DNA of 39,145 nucleotides, taken from NCBI GenBank assembly GCA_018829905.1, contig JAHJST010000002.1, positions 1 to 39,145 of the forward strand, in the 5' to 3' direction. The stretch comes from Patescibacteria group bacterium. GTDB lineage: Bacteria; Patescibacteriota; Minisyncoccia; RBG-13-40-8-A. Both the position numbers and the translations under genes were made by a program. Of the stretch, positions 2,602-25,777 are shown piece by piece. Below the pieces are notes generated by a model that had not been told where the DNA came from, searched no databases, and saw only the letters and a list, made by a program, of their open reading frames with translations. Position 1 is the first letter of the stretch, and each line of letters opens with the position of its first letter.

Positions 2602-2631
2602 AAAAAAATACGTATTTCTACGTATTTTTTT
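2602..2631. terminator. Bidirectional terminator between convergent genes
   Basis: A perfect 13-bp stem (2602-2614 with 2619-2631) encloses a TTTC loop. It has A-runs on the left arm and T-runs on the right, so it serves rplL on the plus strand and the convergent minus-strand gene. The last bases of the minus-strand gene (stop at 2630-2632) lie in it. Confidence 0.85.
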
Positions 2632-4588
2632 ATATATCAAATTTATAAACCAAATGATTATCTAGAACATATATATATTTTTCATCATCTGTTATCCAAA
2701 GATCTATGAGATTATTAAACTTATCAGAAACATATTGAGTTATTCTATCATCGTTTTTATCATAAGCTAAAATTCTTTTGTTTTCTGAGTCTAGAATATA
2801 TAGATTTTTCATATTTTCTTTTGTAAATATTTGATTTCCTTTTATTATTTCAGGACTAATATTTAATTTAAATTCTTTTATTTTGTTTCCTTGTGTAAAT
2901 TTAATAATTGTTCCGTTTTCTTTTGAAACGTATATATTGCCATCAATTGCTATAGATCTAGAATTTATTAAAGATTCATCTGATGCCCAAATTGATCCAT
3001 TAAGATATGTTTCATTTGGTGAATATTTTAAAATATGTTTATTTTCTGAATCTAAGAAGTATAAATTATTATTATACTCAGCAACATCTTTAATATTAAA
3101 TGTATTTTGTAAATCTGGTTTTAAAAGGTAAGTATTATAATTATCATTTATACTATAAATATATATTTTTTCTGGACTTGATAAAAGAACAATAGAATTG
3201 TCTTTTACAGCTCCTAATTTAAATGTATCTTTTGATGATAAAAATATTAATGTAGGTTGTTTTGTTTCTAAGTCCATTTTGTATAAAAATCCAGAGCTAT
3301 TTTCATATAAATAAAGACTATCTTTTAATTTTAATATTCCACTAGGATTAAAGCTATAAGTATTTTTTGATAAATCAACTATTTCTTCTAATTGATTAAT
3401 GTTTACAATATTATTTATGCTATTTTTCTGAAGATCTAAATCTTTTTTTACTTTTTCAATATTTTCTTCTGAAACTTGCTTAACTCTATTTGGTAAATCA
3501 AATACAATATTGTTAGCATTTGCTATTAAAATATTTGCCTGTTGCAATAGGGATTTGGCACTAAATTGATCTTGATATATTAAAGATATTTTAGATTTTT
3601 CAATTTTTTCATTTGTTCTTTTAATAATATTATCTATGTTTTTGATTTTTGAATCATATGATGTTTTTTGTATTAAATAGGGAGAGAGAAGTAGGGCTAA
3701 AAATAGGAAAAGCATGAATAGATATTTTGGAGCATTATATTCTAGCAAATTAAGCAAAAACTTAGATTTAATTTTTTCCTTTAATTTATTATCTATTTTA
3801 GACACTTTAAGCTTTAATTCGTTTTCTAAGTCAATGCCAAATATCTTTTCTTCTAATTTAGGTTCTTGTTCTATAACTGTTTCTGGTTTATGCCTTGTTT
3901 CTAAAATTAAACAAGCCAAACAAGAAATAGGATTGTTTTTTTGTTCCAATTTATTTTTAATCTCTTCATATAATTGTTCTGTAGATGGATAAGATATCAT
4001 TTCCTTTACTTTTTGACTTGTAATTATTTCTGATATTTCTTCGGTAGCAACAAAAATTCTATCATTTTCTTCTAATTTTCCAGATGCAATATTAGAAAAG
4101 ACTTTTGATGATTGTCCTGTTTTTTCTTTGTTTGTAAATTTTCTAGCAATATTAGTCATTGTTCCTCTTCTGAATAAATATGCTAATGCTTTTCCTGTTT
4201 GTCCAATATGAATATTATCTTTAACAAACGCTAAGCAAGTAAAATCTAGATTTTTAATTAAATCTTTATGTCCTTTTTTAACAAAATCATCTAAATAAAT
4301 ATTTGATCCTTGAAGCGCAGATTCCAATGCTTCTAATGTATTTTTATTTGGATCAGAATAAAAATCTCTTTTAATTGCTGAAGATAATAAATTTAAAACA
4401 AAATCAGCATTTTTTTGTTTTTTAGGAGAAATATTAGATATTTTCCCAATTAAGTATAAATTTCCTAGTTTTGTTTCTTCAATATTTAATGCCTCGTATG
4501 AAAAAACCCCACAAACACAGTCCTTTTTGTTTGAAGGGTTATGATAAACAATTTCTTGGAAATATAGATTAAGATCTCGTAAATTCAT
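2630..4588 (-). CDS. Membrane protein: PPM-phosphatase-like domain, TM helix, coiled coil, beta-propeller
   Basis: I recognise no named family. From the N-terminus it shows a globular domain (about 1-235) resembling a PPM/PP2C fold but without clear metal-binding Asp motifs, a charged linker, one transmembrane helix (about 288-306), a helical coiled-coil stretch (about 312-400), and a C-terminal region with repeated beta patterns (DNSIVLLSS, NNLYFLDSENKHILKYS, KNLYILDSENKRILAYD) typical of a beta-propeller. A cytosolic sensor or pseudophosphatase joined to an extracytoplasmic propeller is the natural reading, but this is inference. The start is placed at 4588 (MNLRDLN) because the ATG three codons upstream overlaps the -10 hexamer TATAAT (4596-4601, minus strand). 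The length from this start is 652 aa. Confidence 0.75.
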   Translation of the reverse strand: MNLRDLNLYFQEIVYHNPSNKKDCVCGVFSYEALNIEETKLGNLYLIGKISNISPKKQKNADFVLNLLSSAIKRDFYSDPNKNTLEALESALQGSNIYLDDFVKKGHKDLIKNLDFTCLAFVKDNIHIGQTGKALAYLFRRGTMTNIARKFTNKEKTGQSSKVFSNIASGKLEENDRIFVATEEISEIITSQKVKEMISYPSTEQLYEEIKNKLEQKNNPISCLACLILETRHKPETVIEQEPKLEEKIFGIDLENELKLKVSKIDNKLKEKIKSKFLLNLLEYNAPKYLFMLFLFLALLLSPYLIQKTSYDSKIKNIDNIIKRTNEKIEKSKISLIYQDQFSAKSLLQQANILIANANNIVFDLPNRVKQVSEENIEKVKKDLDLQKNSINNIVNINQLEEIVDLSKNTYSFNPSGILKLKDSLYLYENSSGFLYKMDLETKQPTLIFLSSKDTFKLGAVKDNSIVLLSSPEKIYIYSINDNYNTYLLKPDLQNTFNIKDVAEYNNNLYFLDSENKHILKYSPNETYLNGSIWASDESLINSRSIAIDGNIYVSKENGTIIKFTQGNKIKEFKLNISPEIIKGNQIFTKENMKNLYILDSENKRILAYDKNDDRITQYVSDKFNNLIDLWITDDEKYIYVLDNHLVYKFDI

Positions 4589-4595
4589 AATTTTC

Positions 4596-4624
4596 ATTAT
4601 ACATCATAAATTAACTCTTTACAA
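4596..4624 (-). promoter_or_regulatory. Promoter of the minus-strand beta-propeller gene
   Basis: Minus strand: TTGTAA (4619-4624), a 17-nt spacer and TATAAT (4596-4601), then 7 nt to the ATG at 4588, which predicts a leaderless mRNA. Its -35 overlaps the -35 of the divergent promoter. Confidence 0.65.
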
Positions 4625-4646
4625 GATTGATTTTAGGGGGTAATAT
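4618..4646 (+). promoter_or_regulatory. Promoter of the lysine-tailed gene, sharing its -35 with the divergent promoter
   Basis: Plus strand: TTTACA (4618-4623), a 17-nt spacer and TAATAT (4641-4646), then 7 nt to the ATG at 4654. Six of the seven bases in TTTACAA form the -35 in each direction, so polymerase can occupy only one promoter at a time. Confidence 0.55.
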
Positions 4647-4653
4647 ACAATAT

Positions 4654-5559
4654 ATGGCAAAAAAGACAAAAATAATTAAAGTAAAAGAAAAAACTGCTAA
4701 GAAAAAAGCAGTTAAAAATAGTAAATCAATTAAATTGAGAAAAAGTGGTAAAAAAGCAAGACAAATGTTAAAGCCTAAAAAAAGGGTTGTTAAAAAATTT
4801 AAAAAGAAAGTTGTTAAAAAGCCAGTTAAGAAAATAATCAAAAAAACTATTAAAAAGCCAGTTAAGAAAAGAGCCAGAAAAATTGTAAGAAAACCAGCAA
4901 AAAGAAAAGCAAAAAAACAAGCATCAAAACCAAGGGTTTTTGTTGGTAAAGATCCTTTAGATCAATTATTTGAATCACAAGTAAAAGTAAAGCTTTTAAA
5001 GTTTTTCTTTAGAAATGCTGAAGATGTTTTTGAACAAAAAGAAATATTTAAACATTTAAGATCTAATGTTATTTTATTAAGACAAGAAATGAATAAATTA
5101 GAAAAAACAGGAATTATTAAACAAAAAAAAGCATTTTTATCTTTTGAAAATAAAAAAGGTGATATTAAAAAAATACAAAAAACAGTTTTTTATTTAAATC
5201 CAGAAATAGAGTTTATTAATGAATTAAAAAATTTAATTCTTAAATCTGTTATATCTTCTAAAGAAGATTTATTAAATGATGTAAAAAAAATAGGAGCTAT
5301 TAAGCTTTTTGTTTTAAACGGTATTTTTACTAATAATAATAATTCAGTAGCTGATATGCTTATTGTTGGTAGTAAAATAAATCAAAGAAAATTAAATAAT
5401 TTCATTAAAGATTTAGAAGCAGAAGTTGGAAAAGAATTAAATTGCGCAGTTTTAACATTAAAAGAATTTGATTATAGATATGATATGTATGATAGATTTG
5501 TTAGAGATTTAATAAGTGATAAAGGAGAGATTTTAATTCAAAGAGTTAGGTTGTGGTAA
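4654..5559 (+). CDS. Lys-rich-tailed winged-helix / nucleotidyltransferase-like protein
   Basis: The first ~95 residues form a histone H1-like tail of KKPVKK and KKTIKK type repeats that should bind nucleic acid and be disordered. After DPLDQLFESQVKVKLLKFFF comes a winged-helix domain (EQKEIFKHLRSNVILLRQEMNKL) and then a region like a minimal nucleotidyltransferase fold (IKLFVLNGIFTNNNNSVADM), in which only one of the usual acidic pair is evident. A catalytic role is therefore doubtful and a DNA-binding regulator or nucleoid protein fits better (inference). The start at 4654 is preferred over an in-frame upstream codon at 4627 because it sits 7 nt after a -10. Length is 301 aa. Confidence 0.75.
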   Translation: MAKKTKIIKVKEKTAKKKAVKNSKSIKLRKSGKKARQMLKPKKRVVKKFKKKVVKKPVKKIIKKTIKKPVKKRARKIVRKPAKRKAKKQASKPRVFVGKDPLDQLFESQVKVKLLKFFFRNAEDVFEQKEIFKHLRSNVILLRQEMNKLEKTGIIKQKKAFLSFENKKGDIKKIQKTVFYLNPEIEFINELKNLILKSVISSKEDLLNDVKKIGAIKLFVLNGIFTNNNNSVADMLIVGSKINQRKLNNFIKDLEAEVGKELNCAVLTLKEFDYRYDMYDRFVRDLISDKGEILIQRVRLW

Positions 5560-5577
5560 AAGCCATTTATATATTTT

Positions 5578-5604
5578 AAAGACCTTGATTATTTCAAGGT
5601 TTTT
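5578..5604 (+). terminator. Rho-independent terminator
   Basis: ACCTTGA (5582-5588) pairs with TCAAGGT (5594-5600). The stem is extended by A-T pairs and one G-U, and the T-run ends at 5604. It ends the lysine-tailed gene. Confidence 0.8.
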
Positions 5605-5614
5605 AAAAATATTG

Positions 5615-5620
5615 TATAAT
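5615..5620 (+). promoter_or_regulatory. -10 element for the 5627 gene (leaderless)
   Basis: A perfect TATAAT is followed by 6 nt and the ATG at 5627. No good -35 is seen; the -35 position falls inside the preceding terminator. Confidence 0.6.
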
Positions 5621-5626
5621 ATAAGT

Positions 5627-6001
5627 ATGATAATATTAATTTTCTGGAAATGGTATTATACTAAGGGAGTTAAGAATATTTTATTTGCATGGAAAAACTT
5701 TATTTTATTTTCTGTGGAATATTTTTCTATTCCCTTGCTTTTAAAAACTTTGTTTTCTCCATGGAAAAGAGATATTACTAAAAAGCCACGTGGTCTTGAT
5801 TTAAAAAAAATATTTGAATACATATCATTTAATACTATTTCTCGTGGCTTAGGTTTTGTTATAAGATTCTTTACTATTTTAGTTGGAATCTTATTTTTTT
5901 TATTAACTTTAATAATTGGTTGTTTCATTTTTATTATTTGGTTAATTTTGCCTTTGATATTTATTGGTTTATTAATTTTAGCCTTTTTTCTAATTGTTTA
6001 A
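5627..6001 (+). CDS. Small integral membrane protein paired with the Clp-like ATPase
   Basis: This 124-aa protein has a hydrophobic N-terminus, a polar middle with LLKTLFSPWKRD, and a long C-terminal double-helix hydrophobic block ending at the stop. I know no named family. The start at 5627 is chosen from the TATAAT 6 nt upstream; a longer frame from 5585 would begin inside the preceding terminator. It ends one base before the ATG of the Clp-like gene, so the two are very likely co-translated and may form one membrane complex (inference from position). Confidence 0.75.
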   Translation: MIILIFWKWYYTKGVKNILFAWKNFILFSVEYFSIPLLLKTLFSPWKRDITKKPRGLDLKKIFEYISFNTISRGLGFVIRFFTILVGILFFLLTLIIGCFIFIIWLILPLIFIGLLILAFFLIV

Positions 6002-6002
6002 T

Positions 6003-8531
6003 ATGTTTAAAACAAGAAAAACAAATTTAGTTTATGAAGCTGTAAGATTAGAGAGATTATTTCATCCAGATGTTGTAAAATCATTTAATTGGTTGTTTTT
6101 TCTTTTGGCAATATTCTTTTTTTTGGTTTTTATGAAACCAGGATTTTTAAATTTATCATCAGAAGAAATTCTTGGTATTTTTATACTTTGTATTTTAGTA
6201 GCTATAAAGGGTTTAATTTATTTATTATTTTTATCTGATCTTAAGGCTAATTTTTCTTCAAAAAAATCTTTAGTTGATGAGATTGCTTCTGGAAAAAACT
6301 TAAAAGATATTAATTTAGCAGAGTATTTGGGCTTTAGAGTTACCAGGGCAATTGCAAAAACATCTCTTTTTTGTAAACGTAAAAACATTCCTTTAGACGC
6401 TTTTATTGTTGTTTGTATTTTTTTAAAAGACAAAAGAGTTAAGGCAATTTTTGAAAAATTAGATTTAGACTTTGATTTATTTAAACAAAAACTAAAAGAT
6501 AGAATAGAACAATTAAAGGAAAGTAAAAGTGAAGAAAGATTTTTAAGTGTTTTGGAAAAAGCAGCATATATAGCTAATACTAATTTTCATAGTCAGATTT
6601 GGGCAATAGATTTTTTAGTTGCAGTTGCTATACAAGATCAATCTTTTATTGAAATTCTTGCTCAAGCTGATATGAAGGCAGAAGATGTTGATCATGTTGT
6701 TGCTTGGGAAGATTATGTTGAACATGAGTTTAAGGTTAAAAAGCAATTTTGGAGATTAGAAAATCTAATGAAGATCAGAGGAATAGGAAAACAATGGGCT
6801 GCTGGTTATACAGTAAATCTAGATCGTTATAGTATAGAAGTATCAAAAATTATTAGAAAACAAGATCTTTCTATCCATTTAATGGCTCATGAAAAAGAAG
6901 TTTATGCAATAGAAAGAATTTTAGCCAGAAGTGGTGAGAATAATATATTATTAATTGGTAGGCCAGGAGTTGGTCGTTCAACAATAGCTTATTCTTTTGC
7001 TAAAAAAGCATGCGAAGGAAGATCTTTTTCTAATCTTAATGATAAAAGAATTTTAGAATTAGATATACAAGTTGCTTTGGCTGGCCTAGACACAGAAGGA
7101 GAAATGCTTGGAAGATTAAAAATAATATTTTCTGAAGCAGTTAGCGCTGGAAACGTTATTCTAATAATTGATGAAATACATAATTATCTAGGTTCAAATA
7201 AAGGTCCAGGAGCAATAAATATTGGTCCTGTTATTGCTCCTTATCTTTCTTCTCCTAATTTTCAAGTTATTGGTATTAGTTCATATGATGGTTGGCACAA
7301 ATATATTGAGAATAATTCTACAATTAGAAGATCTTTTGTTAAATTAGAGATTAATGAGCCAGATAAATTAAAAACAATTTTAATTTTAGAAGATATGCTT
7401 CCTGGTTTAGAAAAAAAGTATAAGGTTTATGTTAATTATCGTGTTTTAAGAGATATTGTTGAATTAACTGATCAATATATTCAAAATATTCCTTTTCCGG
7501 AAAAAGCAATTGATTTATTGACTGAAATTCTTGTTTATACAAAAAGACAAGGCAAAAACAAGGTTTTATCAGAATATGTTAATCAAATCATTTCAGAAAG
7601 GACAGAAATTCCAGTAGGAGCAATTAAAGAGGAAGAAAGACAAAAATTATTAAACTTAGAAAAAATTATTCATAAAAGAATAATCAATCAAGAAGAAGCA
7701 GTTAAAATGATTTCTGAGGCAATGCGCAGAGCAAGAGCTGGTGTTCAAGAAGGAAAAAGACCAATTGGTAGTTTTTTATTCTTAGGTCCTACTGGCGTTG
7801 GAAAAACAGAAACATCAAAAGCATTAGCTAATGCATATTTTGGTTCTTCTGAAAGAATGATAAGATTTGATATGTCTGAGTATCAACAAATACAAGCAAT
7901 TAGTAGATTAATTGGTATGCCTGAAAAAGATGAACCAGGGCTATTAACCAAAGCTATTGCTGATGATCCATTTTCTTTGGTTCTTTTTGATGAAATAGAA
8001 AAAACCAATCCAAATATTTTAAATTTGTTTTTACAAGTTTTTGATGAAGGCTGGTTAACAGATGCTTTTGGTAGAAAAGTAAGTTTTAGAAATTCAATAA
8101 TTATTGGAACATCTAATGCAGGAGCAGAATTAATTAGACAAAAAGTTAGACAGGGGAAAGGATTAGAAACATTTAAAGATGAATTAATTGATTACTTATT
8201 AAAACAAAATTTATTTAGACCAGAATTTTTAAATCGTTTTGATGCTGTTGTTGTATTTAAACCATTAACTCATGAGAATTTAATTGAAATAGCTAAATTA
8301 ATGTTAACCAGCTTAGCTAATAGATTATATGAAGGAAAGGGGATTCGTTTTGTTATTAGTCATGAATTAGTAGATATGGTTGCTAAACTTGGTTATGAAC
8401 CAGAATTTGGTGCCAGGCCAATGAGAAGAGTTATACAAGATAAAATAGAAAGTAAGATTGCTAGAGATATTTTAGAGAATAATCTTAAAAGAGGGGATTT
8501 TGTTGAGATTAAACTTGAAGAATTAAAATAG
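6003..8531 (+). CDS. Membrane-anchored divergent ClpC/ClpB-type AAA+ ATPase
   Basis: This 842-aa protein has two N-terminal transmembrane helices (about 30-48 and 56-78), a Clp_N-like helical region (about 90-240) and two AAA+ modules. Module 1 has P-loop GRPGVGRST (about 319-327), with Arg where Lys is invariant, and Walker B ILIIDEIH. Module 2 has intact GPTGVGKT (about 595-602), LVLFDEIEK and FRPEFLNRFD, plus the usual Clp C-terminal small domain. Missing elements are the KYRG-type pore loop of module 1 (AGLDTEG instead), the GYVGYEEG pore loop of module 2 (SRLIGMPEKDEPGL instead), the VGF ClpP-docking loop, and an M-domain. It is unlikely to be a standard ClpP-feeding unfoldase. The ATG at 6003 is preferred to a TTG at 5994. 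Confidence 0.85.
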   Translation: MFKTRKTNLVYEAVRLERLFHPDVVKSFNWLFFLLAIFFFLVFMKPGFLNLSSEEILGIFILCILVAIKGLIYLLFLSDLKANFSSKKSLVDEIASGKNLKDINLAEYLGFRVTRAIAKTSLFCKRKNIPLDAFIVVCIFLKDKRVKAIFEKLDLDFDLFKQKLKDRIEQLKESKSEERFLSVLEKAAYIANTNFHSQIWAIDFLVAVAIQDQSFIEILAQADMKAEDVDHVVAWEDYVEHEFKVKKQFWRLENLMKIRGIGKQWAAGYTVNLDRYSIEVSKIIRKQDLSIHLMAHEKEVYAIERILARSGENNILLIGRPGVGRSTIAYSFAKKACEGRSFSNLNDKRILELDIQVALAGLDTEGEMLGRLKIIFSEAVSAGNVILIIDEIHNYLGSNKGPGAINIGPVIAPYLSSPNFQVIGISSYDGWHKYIENNSTIRRSFVKLEINEPDKLKTILILEDMLPGLEKKYKVYVNYRVLRDIVELTDQYIQNIPFPEKAIDLLTEILVYTKRQGKNKVLSEYVNQIISERTEIPVGAIKEEERQKLLNLEKIIHKRIINQEEAVKMISEAMRRARAGVQEGKRPIGSFLFLGPTGVGKTETSKALANAYFGSSERMIRFDMSEYQQIQAISRLIGMPEKDEPGLLTKAIADDPFSLVLFDEIEKTNPNILNLFLQVFDEGWLTDAFGRKVSFRNSIIIGTSNAGAELIRQKVRQGKGLETFKDELIDYLLKQNLFRPEFLNRFDAVVVFKPLTHENLIEIAKLMLTSLANRLYEGKGIRFVISHELVDMVAKLGYEPEFGARPMRRVIQDKIESKIARDILENNLKRGDFVEIKLEELK

Positions 8532-19111: not shown

Positions 19112-19699
19112 TTATTTTCTTCCTAAAAATGCATTACTTAAAGTATCTTCGTCCATATATTCTAATTCACTACCAGTAGATAACCCGCGTCCTAGCCGGG
19201 TTATTTTTAATTCAGGATAAATCTTTTTTAATTCTTCTAATTGTTTTTGTGCGTATAAAGCAATTGTTTCTCCTTCAGTTGTTGCATCAGTAGCAATAAC
19301 TATTTCATTTAATTCTTTTTTTGATTTTTTAATTCTTTCTATTAATTTTTTCAATCTTTTTAATTGTTCTTTTTCATTTTCTGTTAAAATACAATATATT
19401 CCTTGATATCTTTTTGTTTTTTCTATTGCTTCAATGTCTGTGTCTTTTTCTATTAAACATATACTTGTTCTATCCCTGTTATTATCCTTACATATTTCAC
19501 ATACATTTGATTCAGTAACTCTATTACAAAAATCACAATGAGTGATTTTTTTAATTTCATCAATCTTTTTAGAAAATTTTTCTATTTCTTCTTTTGGTTG
19601 ACTTAATAAATGAAAAACAAATCGGGCTGCTTGTCTTGGCCCAATTGAAGGTAGTTTGGCAAATTCATCTATTAAATTTTGTATAGGTTTTGGTAACAT
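19112..19699 (-). CDS. recR: Recombination mediator RecR
   Basis: RecR works in gap repair with RecO (and RecF) to load RecA. The N-terminal helix-hairpin-helix (FAKLPSIGPRQAARFVFHLL), a C4 zinc finger (CDFC...CEIC, about 55-70) and a Toprim domain (CLIEKDTDIEAIEKT, VIATDATTEGE, TRLGRGLSTGSELEYMDE) are all present. The 195-aa length is standard. The start codon overlaps the dnaB stop by one base (TAATG), so the two replication/repair genes are translationally coupled. Confidence 0.96.
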   Translation of the reverse strand: MLPKPIQNLIDEFAKLPSIGPRQAARFVFHLLSQPKEEIEKFSKKIDEIKKITHCDFCNRVTESNVCEICKDNNRDRTSICLIEKDTDIEAIEKTKRYQGIYCILTENEKEQLKRLKKLIERIKKSKKELNEIVIATDATTEGETIALYAQKQLEELKKIYPELKITRLGRGLSTGSELEYMDEDTLSNAFLGRK

Positions 19700-22341
19700 T
19701 ATTCGTCTCTATGTTTTTCTAATGTTTTAAAAGTTACTCGATCTTGATCAAAGTATAGTTCTATTTGTCCAATAGGACCATTTCTATGTTTTGCAATAAA
19801 TATATCTGCTATATTTTTTCTTTCACTGTCTTTTAAATCTAAATCTTCTCTATAAATCATTAAAACTACGTCTGCATCTTGTTCTAAGGAATTATGAACA
19901 ATAATATCATTAGCAATAAAATTATGTGCTTTTTCTACTGTTGCATCATACACATCTTCTATTTTGAGTTTTTTTATTGAAACAATTTTTTCCCAAAGAA
20001 TATCAGAGTTTGCTAATTTTCCTAAAAATGGGTCTTTTAGCGTATTGTATATTTTAGTCATTCTTGTTCTGCTTATTCCATTTTTAAAGTTAGGAGAATA
20101 ACGAGAAGAATTAATAGATTTAAAAACACCCTTCCATCCTACTCCAATTTTTTCTTTTGCTGGAATAACTGCAAATTGCCATACTTGTCTTGGAATAATA
20201 TCAATATTTGTATTTGTTGAAATTTCTTTAAGAGATTTTTTAAGTTCTGGAATGATTTTTGCTCTTTGTCCAACAATTCCTATTTCGTTTAAAAACTTTA
20301 ATTGTTCTTCAGCTCCTTCTATGTGTATATGATACATTTTTCTATATCCTTTTTTTGTAATTTCTCTTAAAGAGCTTTTAATATTTAATCTTAATAAAAG
20401 ATGTTGTACTTGTTCAGCAAGAATTATGCTACTAGTAGCATAATATATATTTCCAGCTGGTTTTCTTCCAGTAAGTTTTTTCCAGCTTAAATTACCATCA
20501 GTTGCCCATAAATGTTTTAAAAACATTGCTATTCTTTTATTATCACATTCAAATATGGCTTTTGGCATTTTTTTATTATAAGAACGAACGCGATCAATTT
20601 CTAATTTATTAAACCAATTGGTAATTGGATGATATTTTTTATGAGTTAAATGATATGGACTTGTTAAATATATATGATACCAGTTTTTCTGTTTTACAAT
20701 TCTTCCATCTATATTAAATAAATCTTTTGCTGTTTTTTTAACTATTTCAATATTTTCTTTATCAGCGCTTGTATAGTGATATGGTTGTTTTGGCAAAATA
20801 CAACCATCTCCGAGTAGATGTGCAAGTAAAATAAGTTCTTTTAAGGAAATAGGATTTGATGGTTTTTCTGGCTCGAATTTTCTAGGAAGTGCAATAAAAT
20901 CTCCAATTTCTAATTTGTCTAATCTTTGCCATCCCTCTAATTTTAAAAATGGATGATTTGATGATGCTTTAATAGTTTTTCCACTTCTAGTTTTTAATTC
21001 ATAAGTCATTTTTTTTCCAGAAGAAAATACTTTTGTCATTTTGTGTGATTTAACTTTTAAATTTTTATCAACTGCCAATATTTTAATTGGTTTTTGTTCT
21101 TTTCTTTCAGCTAATTCTCTAATTGGCATTCTTTGACCAGTATCTGCTATTGTAATTAAAGTATCTCCTGTTAAACAACCAGAGCTACGTAAGTCAGATA
21201 ATCTAGGAATTTTTGGATGTCTTTGTTCTGATGCTCTAGACAATTGAGAAATAGCTAAAACAGGAACATCTAATTCTCTTGCTAATGCTTTTAAGGATCT
21301 AGAAATATCAGTCATTTGTTGAACCTCACTTTCTCTATAATTGCCTGGATTTATTAATTGAATATAGTCTACGATTATTAATCCTAATCCGTGTTCTGAT
21401 TGTAATCTTCTTGCCTTTGTTTTAATTTCTAAAACAGAACAAGAAGCTGTATCATCAATAAATATTGGTGCTTCTGATAATTTTCCTATTGCTTTTTGTA
21501 TTTTTGTAAAATCATTATCTTCTCCTTTAGAAGATAGTTTTCCAGTTCTTAATTTCCATAGATCAATGCCTGCTTGAGAACAAAGCATTCTATCTACTAA
21601 TTGAGATGCTGACATTTCTAATGAAAATATTCCTACTGGTATTTTTTCATTTACTGCAATGTTTCTAGCTATGTCTAGCCCCAAAGTTGTTTTTCCTATG
21701 CTTGGCCTTGCAGCCAAAAGAATATAGTCTGATTTTTGAAGACCAGCTAAAAGATTATCTAAATCATTGAATCCAGTGGGAATTCCTCTTAGGGTCCCTC
21801 CTTCATGTTTGTGTAATTGATCAATTCTTTCAAATGCTTCTTCTAAGGCTGGTTTTATTGGTGTAAAATATTGTTTTAAAGATTTTTGAGATACGGCAAA
21901 AATTCTTTTTTCTGCATCATCTAATATCACTTCTATTTCATCTGATTCTTGAAAACTAGTTTGTGTGATATTATGAGCTGCTTCTATTAAATCTCTTAAC
22001 ATCTTTTTTTTCTGAACTATTTTTGCATATTTAACAACATTAGCAGCTGTTGGCACAAAATTAACCAATTCTGTTAAATAGCTTGATCCACCAATATTAT
22101 TTAATGTTTTTTTCTCTTCTAATCTGCTTGATAGAGTCATAATATCAATTGGTTCATTTTTTTCAAATAATTCTAGCATTATATCAAAGATAATATTATG
22201 TGTGTCTCTATAAAAATCTCCTGGATGTAAAATATCAGCTATTTTAACAATAGCTTTTTTATCTAAAAGCACAGAACCTAAAACAGATTGTTCTGCTTCT
22301 ATACTTTGAGGTGGTAGTTTGTCTATTTTTTCATCTGGCAT
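19699..22341 (-). CDS. dnaB: Replicative DNA helicase DnaB with an in-frame intein
   Basis: DnaB unwinds DNA at the replication fork as a hexamer. The N-terminal domain (PQSIEAEQSVLGSVL) is followed by a RecA-type helicase core: Walker A ARPSIGKTT (about 211-219), IIVDYIQLI and SQLSRASEQR. The 880-aa frame is interrupted after residue 388 (DLRSSG) by a 429-residue intein and resumes with SLEQDADVVLMIYRED. Without the intein the helicase is 451 aa, the usual size. Splicing should be needed for function, since the insert falls in a conserved motor motif. recR follows at a 1-nt overlap. The predicted promoter makes the mRNA leaderless. Confidence 0.96.
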   Translation of the reverse strand: MPDEKIDKLPPQSIEAEQSVLGSVLLDKKAIVKIADILHPGDFYRDTHNIIFDIMLELFEKNEPIDIMTLSSRLEEKKTLNNIGGSSYLTELVNFVPTAANVVKYAKIVQKKKMLRDLIEAAHNITQTSFQESDEIEVILDDAEKRIFAVSQKSLKQYFTPIKPALEEAFERIDQLHKHEGGTLRGIPTGFNDLDNLLAGLQKSDYILLAARPSIGKTTLGLDIARNIAVNEKIPVGIFSLEMSASQLVDRMLCSQAGIDLWKLRTGKLSSKGEDNDFTKIQKAIGKLSEAPIFIDDTASCSVLEIKTKARRLQSEHGLGLIIVDYIQLINPGNYRESEVQQMTDISRSLKALARELDVPVLAISQLSRASEQRHPKIPRLSDLRSSGCLTGDTLITIADTGQRMPIRELAERKEQKPIKILAVDKNLKVKSHKMTKVFSSGKKMTYELKTRSGKTIKASSNHPFLKLEGWQRLDKLEIGDFIALPRKFEPEKPSNPISLKELILLAHLLGDGCILPKQPYHYTSADKENIEIVKKTAKDLFNIDGRIVKQKNWYHIYLTSPYHLTHKKYHPITNWFNKLEIDRVRSYNKKMPKAIFECDNKRIAMFLKHLWATDGNLSWKKLTGRKPAGNIYYATSSIILAEQVQHLLLRLNIKSSLREITKKGYRKMYHIHIEGAEEQLKFLNEIGIVGQRAKIIPELKKSLKEISTNTNIDIIPRQVWQFAVIPAKEKIGVGWKGVFKSINSSRYSPNFKNGISRTRMTKIYNTLKDPFLGKLANSDILWEKIVSIKKLKIEDVYDATVEKAHNFIANDIIVHNSLEQDADVVLMIYREDLDLKDSERKNIADIFIAKHRNGPIGQIELYFDQDRVTFKTLEKHRDE
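19891..21177 (-). mobile_element. DnaB intein with LAGLIDADG homing endonuclease
   Basis: The element spans 429 codons, from Cys1 (CLTGDTLI) to His-Asn (IIVHN), followed by Ser+1 of the extein. The splicing blocks are visible: N-terminal block A, block B with the Thr...His pair in GKTIKASSNHPFL, and a C-terminal YDATVEKAHNFIAND block. Two LAGLIDADG-type motifs (LLAHLLGDG and FLKHLWATDG) mark a homing endonuclease with its acidic residues intact, so both splicing and mobility look functional. The insertion point corresponds to a site used by DnaB inteins in other bacteria. Confidence 0.94.
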
Positions 22342-24794: not shown

Positions 24795-24986
24795 ATGGAA
24801 GAAAAGAAAGATGTAAAGATTGAAAGGTTAAAAAAGGAAGAAAAAGAGATTGAGGAATTAAAGAAAAAATTTAGATTAGCAAGAAAAATCTTTTTTGTTA
24901 TTTCCATTGCTATGCTTGTATTTTCTTTTACTATTTCTTATTCTTTCTTTGCTTTGTTTTTGGTTTTTTGTTCTCAGCCTATCTAA
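24795..24986 (+). CDS. N-terminal part of an SPFH/stomatin-like protein (frame 1)
   Basis: This 63-aa reading frame has a charged coiled-coil N-terminus (about 1-27) and a hydrophobic hairpin (about 30-57), ending four codons past a T6 run. It starts at 24795 with AAGGAG at proper distance under a consensus promoter. The following SPFH frame lacks exactly this part: read in the -1 frame, the hydrophobic segment continues smoothly (FGFLFSAYLTFSFKFVQEW). The two frames are therefore best read as one gene joined by a -1 shift at 24964-24969, or as one gene broken by a frameshift mutation or sequencing error. Confidence 0.7.
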   Translation: MEEKKDVKIERLKKEEKEIEELKKKFRLARKIFFVISIAMLVFSFTISYSFFALFLVFCSQPI

Positions 24987-25777
24987 CCTTTTCATTTAAG
25001 TTTGTGCAAGAATGGGAAGAGGCATTGATTATTTTTCTTGGCAAATATAAAAGAACCAGAAAAGCTGGACCAACTAGCATTTTTTGGCCATTTGAGAAAG
25101 TAATCTTTGTTGACATGAGAATAAAAGAAAAAGACATGTCAAAGCAGGAGGTTATAACGTCAGATGGAATAACCTTAGAAGTAGATGCTGTAATATGGTA
25201 CAGGGCAGATGATGCAAAGGCATATACTTTTAACATCCAGGACCCAGATGGATCGACCCAAGATTTTTCAATGGCTGTTATAAGAGGCAAAATGGGAAGA
25301 ATGACAGAAAAAGGATGCATTAAAGAAAGACGCAAAATAACAGAGTATTTAATGAGTGAGGTTGATGGAAAGACAAAAGAGAATGAAGCAGAAAAACCAA
25401 TTGACTGGGGAATTAAAGTAACAGGAGCAGAAATAAAGGATATTCGAAGACCAAAAGAAGTTGAAGCCGCAGTCCATAAAAAGAGAGCAGCAAAAGACGA
25501 AAGAGATGCTACAATACTAAAAGCAGAAGGAGAATCTAAGGCAAAGATGTTGATGGCTGATGCAGAAAGATATCAAGTAGAAGAAGAGGGGAAGGCTGAT
25601 GTTTTTTTTACCAACCTTTCAATTGAGATGTTGGAAAAATACACCGGAGACAAGAAATCAGCTGCAGAGCTTTATAAGGTTCTCAGAGCTATTAATGAAT
25701 TTGGTGGCTCTGATACAAAAACAATTCTTGCGGAATTTCCTGGTATTAGTGATTTGTTCGGAAAATTTCTAAAATAG
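24968..25777 (+). CDS. SPFH/band-7 (stomatin-like) domain protein, frame 2
   Basis: This frame encodes the SPFH core: EEALIIFLGKYKRTRKAGP, KQEVITSDGITLEVDAVIWYR and VTGAEIKDIRRPKEVEAAV, followed by a long Lys/Ala/Glu coiled coil (AAKDERDATILKAEGESKA) and a C-terminal domain ending FLK. SPFH proteins scaffold membrane microdomains and often hold proteases or stress complexes. The only start for this frame alone would be TTG at 24968 inside a transmembrane segment with no SD, so expression by frameshift from 24795 is more plausible. Base composition and codon use are visibly less AT-biased than the neighbours, which hints at transfer. Confidence 0.8.
   Translation: MFSAYLTFSFKFVQEWEEALIIFLGKYKRTRKAGPTSIFWPFEKVIFVDMRIKEKDMSKQEVITSDGITLEVDAVIWYRADDAKAYTFNIQDPDGSTQDFSMAVIRGKMGRMTEKGCIKERRKITEYLMSEVDGKTKENEAEKPIDWGIKVTGAEIKDIRRPKEVEAAVHKKRAAKDERDATILKAEGESKAKMLMADAERYQVEEEGKADVFFTNLSIEMLEKYTGDKKSAAELYKVLRAINEFGGSDTKTILAEFPGISDLFGKFLK

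Follow-up and report, generated by a model that had tools for sequence, protein, structure and literature searches.

What does a Clp ATPase do once it is fixed in the membrane and has lost the loops with which its relatives grip their substrates? This question is raised by a gene lying in a 39,145-nucleotide stretch of DNA (hereafter the window), which is contig C26 of a patescibacterial genome of 641 kb; neighbouring genomes also carry the gene. Its reading frame (5994-8531, forward strand) encodes a protein that we call CLP, which has 845 aa if translation begins at the TTG at 5994 and 842 aa if it begins at the ATG at 6003. The ATG, already taken as the start in an earlier note made from the sequence of this DNA, is the more likely of the two, while the residue numbers used here are counted from the TTG. 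Pfam recognises AAA, AAA_lid_9, AAA_2 and ClpB_D2-small in CLP, and with these two modules (D1 and D2), the D2 small domain and a fold match to ClpC, both AAA+ modules are as recognisable as the note had said. The best PDB matches, by sequence and by fold, are ClpB (1qvr) and ClpC, the fold being closest to ClpC in an AlphaFold model with a mean pLDDT of 83 (all models discussed here are of monomers). The nearest NCBIfam models are those of ClpB and ClpA, and CLP falls far under the cut-off of both (502 vs 1232 bits and 456 vs 993 bits, respectively). The positions of the features are collected in Table 1.

Table 1. CLP, its partner PART and their features, in window positions
Feature	Position	Strand	Basis
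Terminator-like hairpin of 15 pairs, after the upstream wHTH gene and ahead of the PART-CLP pair	5574..5608	+	Consensus scan only; 2 found vs 1.3 expected
PART, 124-aa membrane protein; conserved W..Y, FSxxxLxxTLFxPWxR, NxxSRxxGxxxR	5627..6001	+	ORF, profile searches, AlphaFold
CLP, membrane-anchored Clp/HSP100-derived double AAA+ ATPase	6003..8531	+	ORF, Pfam, alignment, AlphaFold model
Two transmembrane helices and short loop (residues 25-80)	6066..6233	+	Hydropathy; AlphaFold helices 25-47 and 56-85
Divergent Clp_N domain (about residues 134-237)	6393..6704	+	hhalign vs standard Clp N-domains
Family-specific linker FWxxENLxxxxGIGxxWxxGYTxxLDxY (residues 237-280)	6702..6833	+	Alignment
D1 module (about residues 296-550); R328 in Walker A, without D1 Arg fingers	6879..7643	+	Alignment
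D1 pore-loop position A363-E370, AGLDTEGE for AGxKYRGE	7080..7103	+	Alignment
D2 module and small domain (about residues 560-839); K604, D666, E667, N708, R748, R808 intact	7671..8510	+	Pfam, alignment
Shortened D2 pore loop G641-L650, 10 residues	7914..7943	+	Alignment; 14 in 96/96 standard Clps
Short helix replacing the xGF ClpP-docking loop	8127..8171	+	Alignment, AlphaFold

The earlier note had two transmembrane helices replacing a free N-terminus. The helices themselves are borne out by hydropathy and by the AlphaFold model, but the N-terminus is not replaced as a whole, since behind them lies a divergent Clp_N domain, which hhalign matches to the N-domains of standard Clps with a probability of 97% and an E of 2.5e-11. 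Next comes a linker in which W238, W268 and G271 are kept in 81-86% of the family and not in standard Clps. The M-domain, which had been described as absent, is indeed missing from the alignment between the D1 lid and D2.

The losses in CLP were first checked in an alignment with 23 standard Clps from the same class, which bore out every one of them. The family alignment comprises 81 members, namely 34 from the class, 7 named ones and 40 drawn phylum-wide, and 96 standard Clps served as a control; the members span the Parcubacteria, Moranbacteria, Taylorbacteria, Magasanikbacteria and Saccharibacteria, all within the Patescibacteria (CPR). In the window, the Walker motifs of D2 are intact (GPTGVGKTE and LFDEIEK) and the protein reads LIGMPEKDEPGLL where standard Clps have LIGxPPGYVGYEEGGxL. 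Throughout the family, the D2 Walker A Lys, the Walker B Asp and Glu, the Arg finger and the sensor-2 Arg are found in 81 of 81 members, and the sensor-1 Asn in 80. The GYVG loop is found in none, the first Tyr of GYVGY being missing from all of them, while all 96 standard Clps have the Tyr at this position, so that the loss of the D2 pore loop beside intact Walker motifs, first noticed in the window protein, is a property of the whole family. The loop is 7-11 residues long in 66 of the 81 members, against 14 in every standard Clp, and reaches this full length in nine. An aromatic occurs somewhere in the D2 loop of 15 members without any conserved position, and the search for aromatic pore residues moved elsewhere, which the note had named as a refutation, found none at a conserved place in the loops of the 81 members. 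The ClpP-docking loop was likewise correctly read as absent: the position of its Phe is a gap in 79 of 81 members, and is Phe in 91 of the 96 standard Clps. The losses are thus conserved over the Patescibacteria, and chance is excluded, since those of the pore loop and of the ClpP loop recur in 81 members in which five D2 positions are invariant, while none of the 96 standard Clps has lost the D2 loop.

For module 1, attention had been drawn to an Arg in place of the Walker A Lys. This substitution is real in the window protein (Arg328, in GRPGVGRST), but it is not family-wide, Arg being found in 23 of 81 members and Lys in 53. More general changes are the absence of the Walker B Glu (63 members, against 18 that keep it) and that of the D1 Arg fingers (finger 1 kept in 4/81, finger 2 in 5/81). 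No member among the 81 has the complete set of Lys, Glu and an Arg finger, and D1 is predicted to be a catalytically dead module. Restoring the Lys of D1 for an ATPase assay, as had been proposed, would therefore be beside the point, since this residue is present in most relatives and D1 would be dead for other reasons. The absence of a KYRG pore loop, noted for the window protein, holds for nearly all members, in which Asp, Thr, Ser, Asn, Gly or another residue stands at the position of the pore aromatic; an aromatic is found in the D1 loop of 7 of the 81, and a KYRG-type loop in a single class member (L018, with KYRGD) and in one regular-expression match among the 40 phylum members. L018 (genome G025) has no D2 loop and is useful as an intermediate in loop loss. 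Mean identity within the CLP family is 0.31 in D1 versus 0.52 in D2, the corresponding values in standard Clps being 0.65 and 0.61.

In a tree of D2, built on an alignment that includes the few pore-loop columns, a branch with 100/95 support separates all sampled CLP members from the standard Clps, both those of CPR and those of other bacteria. Scanning GTDB genomes gave a list of 80 matches, seven of which lack both GYVG and YRG; all seven have PART, the partner protein described below, which the other matches do not, and among the matches listed no CLP was found outside the CPR. A profile search for PART across the phylum matched 155 of 380 genomes. CLP is thus a monophyletic family derived from Clp/HSP100 and not a quirk of one genome. 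It shares with ClpC, ClpA and ClpB the N-domain, the two AAA+ modules, the D2 small domain and the D2 catalytic residues, and it differs from them in that it is membrane-anchored, has a seemingly dead D1, is without aromatic pore loops, ClpP loop and M-domain, comes with a putatively obligate membrane partner, forms a separate clade and stays under the NCBIfam cut-offs for ClpA and ClpB.

PART is encoded from an ATG at 5627 to a stop at 5999-6001 and ends 1 nt ahead of the start of CLP. It lies beside CLP, or is fused to it, in every class member with intact flanks and in seven of the seven named members, and in 40 of 40 PART loci drawn across the phylum the adjacent or fused gene is CLP. At locus L025 the adjoining ORF, of 134 aa, has weak similarity to the PART profile; contig ends truncate loci L015 and L024, and in the genome of L015 another contig carries PART along with the N-terminal part of a CLP. 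The two proteins form a single polypeptide in 11 of the 81 members. Several parts of the tree hold sampled fused members surrounded by unfused ones, so that this fusion probably arose more than once. The constant adjacency of PART and its occasional fusion mark it as an obligate membrane subunit of CLP; the note had already put it forward as a partner, and its conservation across CPR genomes, often in fused form, speaks for this. The AlphaFold model of PART (pLDDT 95) is all-helical, with a helix of 45 residues, a short turn region and a helix of 65 residues, although the long hydrophobic stretch could in reality be folded back as a hairpin. Searches for PART gave no PDB sequence match, no convincing Pfam match and no PDB fold match; the Foldseek matches (best E 2.8) were treated as noise, as was a Pfam match to PRA1, present in 1 of 23 members with an E of 0.005. 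A TATAAT (window 5600-5627) lies after the terminator-like hairpin and about 9 nt ahead of the PART ATG, and the pair may have a transcript of its own that lacks a leader.

The surroundings of the pair point to a possible setting. Wall or division genes (mraZ, mraW, ftsL, PBP, MurF-like, MltG, FtsQ, MurT/GatD, UppS, MraY, MurA) lie within six genes of it at 35 of 80 CLP loci, versus 3 of 20 standard-Clp loci, in a comparison for which the markers were picked from the CLP loci themselves and named by sequence inspection of clusters, and in which related genomes are not independent. Such genes are missing near more than half of the CLP loci. Gene order varies: in the window the pair precedes mraZ, in Magasanikbacteria (L098) it is flanked by ftsL and mraY, in L225 it follows FtsQ, and in Saccharibacteria-like loci it adjoins MurT/GatD. 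A tie of the pair to the cell wall and division is suggested by this gene neighbourhood, which is its sole basis; MreB and MraZ each occur in 55 of 55 genomes, and their phylogenetic profile against that of the pair is uninformative. In G011 (C30) and G040 (C25), two genomes without the CLP family, a standard Clp gene lies near mraZ, and a neighbourhood of Clp and mraZ is possibly ancestral. Upstream of the pair, the window encodes a 655-aa protein (2630-4597, reverse strand) without Pfam match, with one transmembrane helix, a possible phosphatase-like N-part and a propeller-like C-part, and a Lys-rich winged-helix-like protein (4627-5559, forward strand). They are found near the pair in 14 and 12 of 80 loci, respectively, and may be functionally linked to it.

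Could the pair, then, serve the ordinary proteolysis of the cell? CLP might enter mixed rings with the standard Clp, or be its membrane anchor, as a subunit that regulates or localises ClpP proteolysis, and the presence of a standard Clp in nearly all class genomes and of ClpP in 49 of 55 would leave room for this. We nevertheless judge it quite improbable: G019 and G047 (98 and 100% complete) have the PART-CLP pair and one Clp-type match only, with no standard Clp and no ClpP, and therefore the pair can act without either. The ClpP loop is missing almost throughout the family, the only ClpP neighbour of CLP, in G048, is convergent and not common to the relative G351, and the Arg finger and sensor 2 that CLP has of its own suggest homomeric hydrolysis. 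A ClpP partnership was rejected on the same grounds, namely the vanished docking loop, the two genomes without ClpP and the neighbour that is not conserved; the fusion or co-occurrence with ClpP that the note had named as a refutation has no conserved instance. The replacement of FtsH by the pair was rejected as well, FtsH being encoded separately in 52 of 55 genomes. CLP resembles FtsH in having two N-terminal transmembrane helices followed by a cytoplasmic-side AAA+, but FtsH has an M41 peptidase domain, for which CLP has no Pfam match. That CLP is not a conventional threading unfoldase or a ClpP feeder is thus well supported at the sequence level, by the conserved losses and the missing ClpP link, and we infer as candidate roles those of a membrane remodeler, a scaffold or a regulated ATPase, as proposed before.

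Among these possibilities, we lean slightly towards PART and CLP being one non-threading membrane machine, driven by D2, with envelope growth or division as its likely setting according to the gene neighbourhood. As CLP would be unable to grip and thread a polypeptide, the best explanation would be that ATP cycles in D2 act as an assembly or conformational switch. D2 would form a hexameric ATPase ring on the cytoplasmic face of the membrane, and its force would be handed on by the D1 ring, then by the Trp-rich linker and the N-domain, to reach the membrane helices and PART. In this way the membrane would be remodelled, or a membrane complex assembled or disassembled. It is conceivable, if unlikely, that CLP still threads or extracts membrane proteins by means of non-aromatic or moved pore residues, with PART perhaps delivering substrates, as a ClpP-independent, Msp1-like extractase or disaggregase. 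Such an activity would suit a membrane-anchored protein that has the whole two-module architecture of a Clp and every catalytic residue of the D2 ring in place, and the residual aromatics in 15 D2 and 7 D1 loops of the 81 members, the nine D2 loops of full length and the one KYRGD mean that some lineages may keep a residual substrate grip. However, most members have a shorter D2 loop with no conserved substitute residue, the D1 pore loop is degenerate, and aromatic pore loops are described as critical to processive unfolding by Clp/HSP100 proteins (PMC5425593). The degenerate D1 and the missing substrate loops could also be those of a scaffold or a decaying paralogue without mechanical role, but with D2 catalytic residues invariant over a phylum-wide clade and a PART that is conserved and fused, we give this a very slight probability. 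A broader form of the non-threading machine can be drawn, that of a phylum-wide Torsin-like motor in which a Clp/HSP100 protein without threading and a long-helix membrane subunit would remodel the envelope in wall growth and division, an independent prokaryotic origin of non-threading Clp; this is tentative, and we would rather bet against it.

The comparison with Torsins deserves some detail. These proteins are described as relatives of Clp/HSP100 that have no aromatic pore loops and are under the control of membrane cofactors, so that Torsin with LAP1/LULL1 shares with CLP a Clp-related AAA+ devoid of such loops, an association with the membrane and a membrane partner (PMC5425593, PMC7175109). 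The mode of action of CLP could be analogous, with a Clp of two modules and another partner as its parts. Torsin has one AAA+ module where CLP has two, it is luminal (ER/nuclear envelope) whereas CLP would be on the cytoplasmic side, and it has no Arg finger of its own, this being supplied in the ER/nuclear envelope lumen by AAA-fold cofactors, while CLP has the invariant R748. PART, in contrast to these cofactors, is all-helical and has neither an AAA fold nor a PDB fold match. The partner does not activate CLP in the manner of Torsin cofactors, because the Arg finger of D2 is its own, and with this finger, two modules and an unrelated partner, CLP is not a Torsin by membership. Pfam does give a weak Torsin match in 2 of 18 CLP members (best 1.6e-4), which reflects the common AAA fold.

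The loss of all substrate-gripping loops together with the strict retention of one ATPase ring has its best-known precedent in the Torsins, and a bacterial counterpart that has an obligate partner, occurs naturally in fused form and offers dozens of homologues would be a simpler model for non-threading Clp ATPases, as well as giving the Patescibacteria a defined envelope machine. We found no account of the PART-CLP pair in the main texts of the open literature, and there is no mention of Clp or AAA in the main text of a CPR protein-family survey. Saccharibacteria have cultured strains and published genetics (PMC10633639, a paper with no mention of Clp); one CLP member comes from this group, and a direct test may be within reach, provided that a cultured strain is confirmed to carry the pair. 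Elsewhere in the window, an SPFH/Band_7 protein is encoded at 24968-25777 on the forward strand, possibly a membrane-scaffold gene, and a DnaB helicase gene at 19699-22341 on the reverse strand is split by an intein with LAGLIDADG domains.
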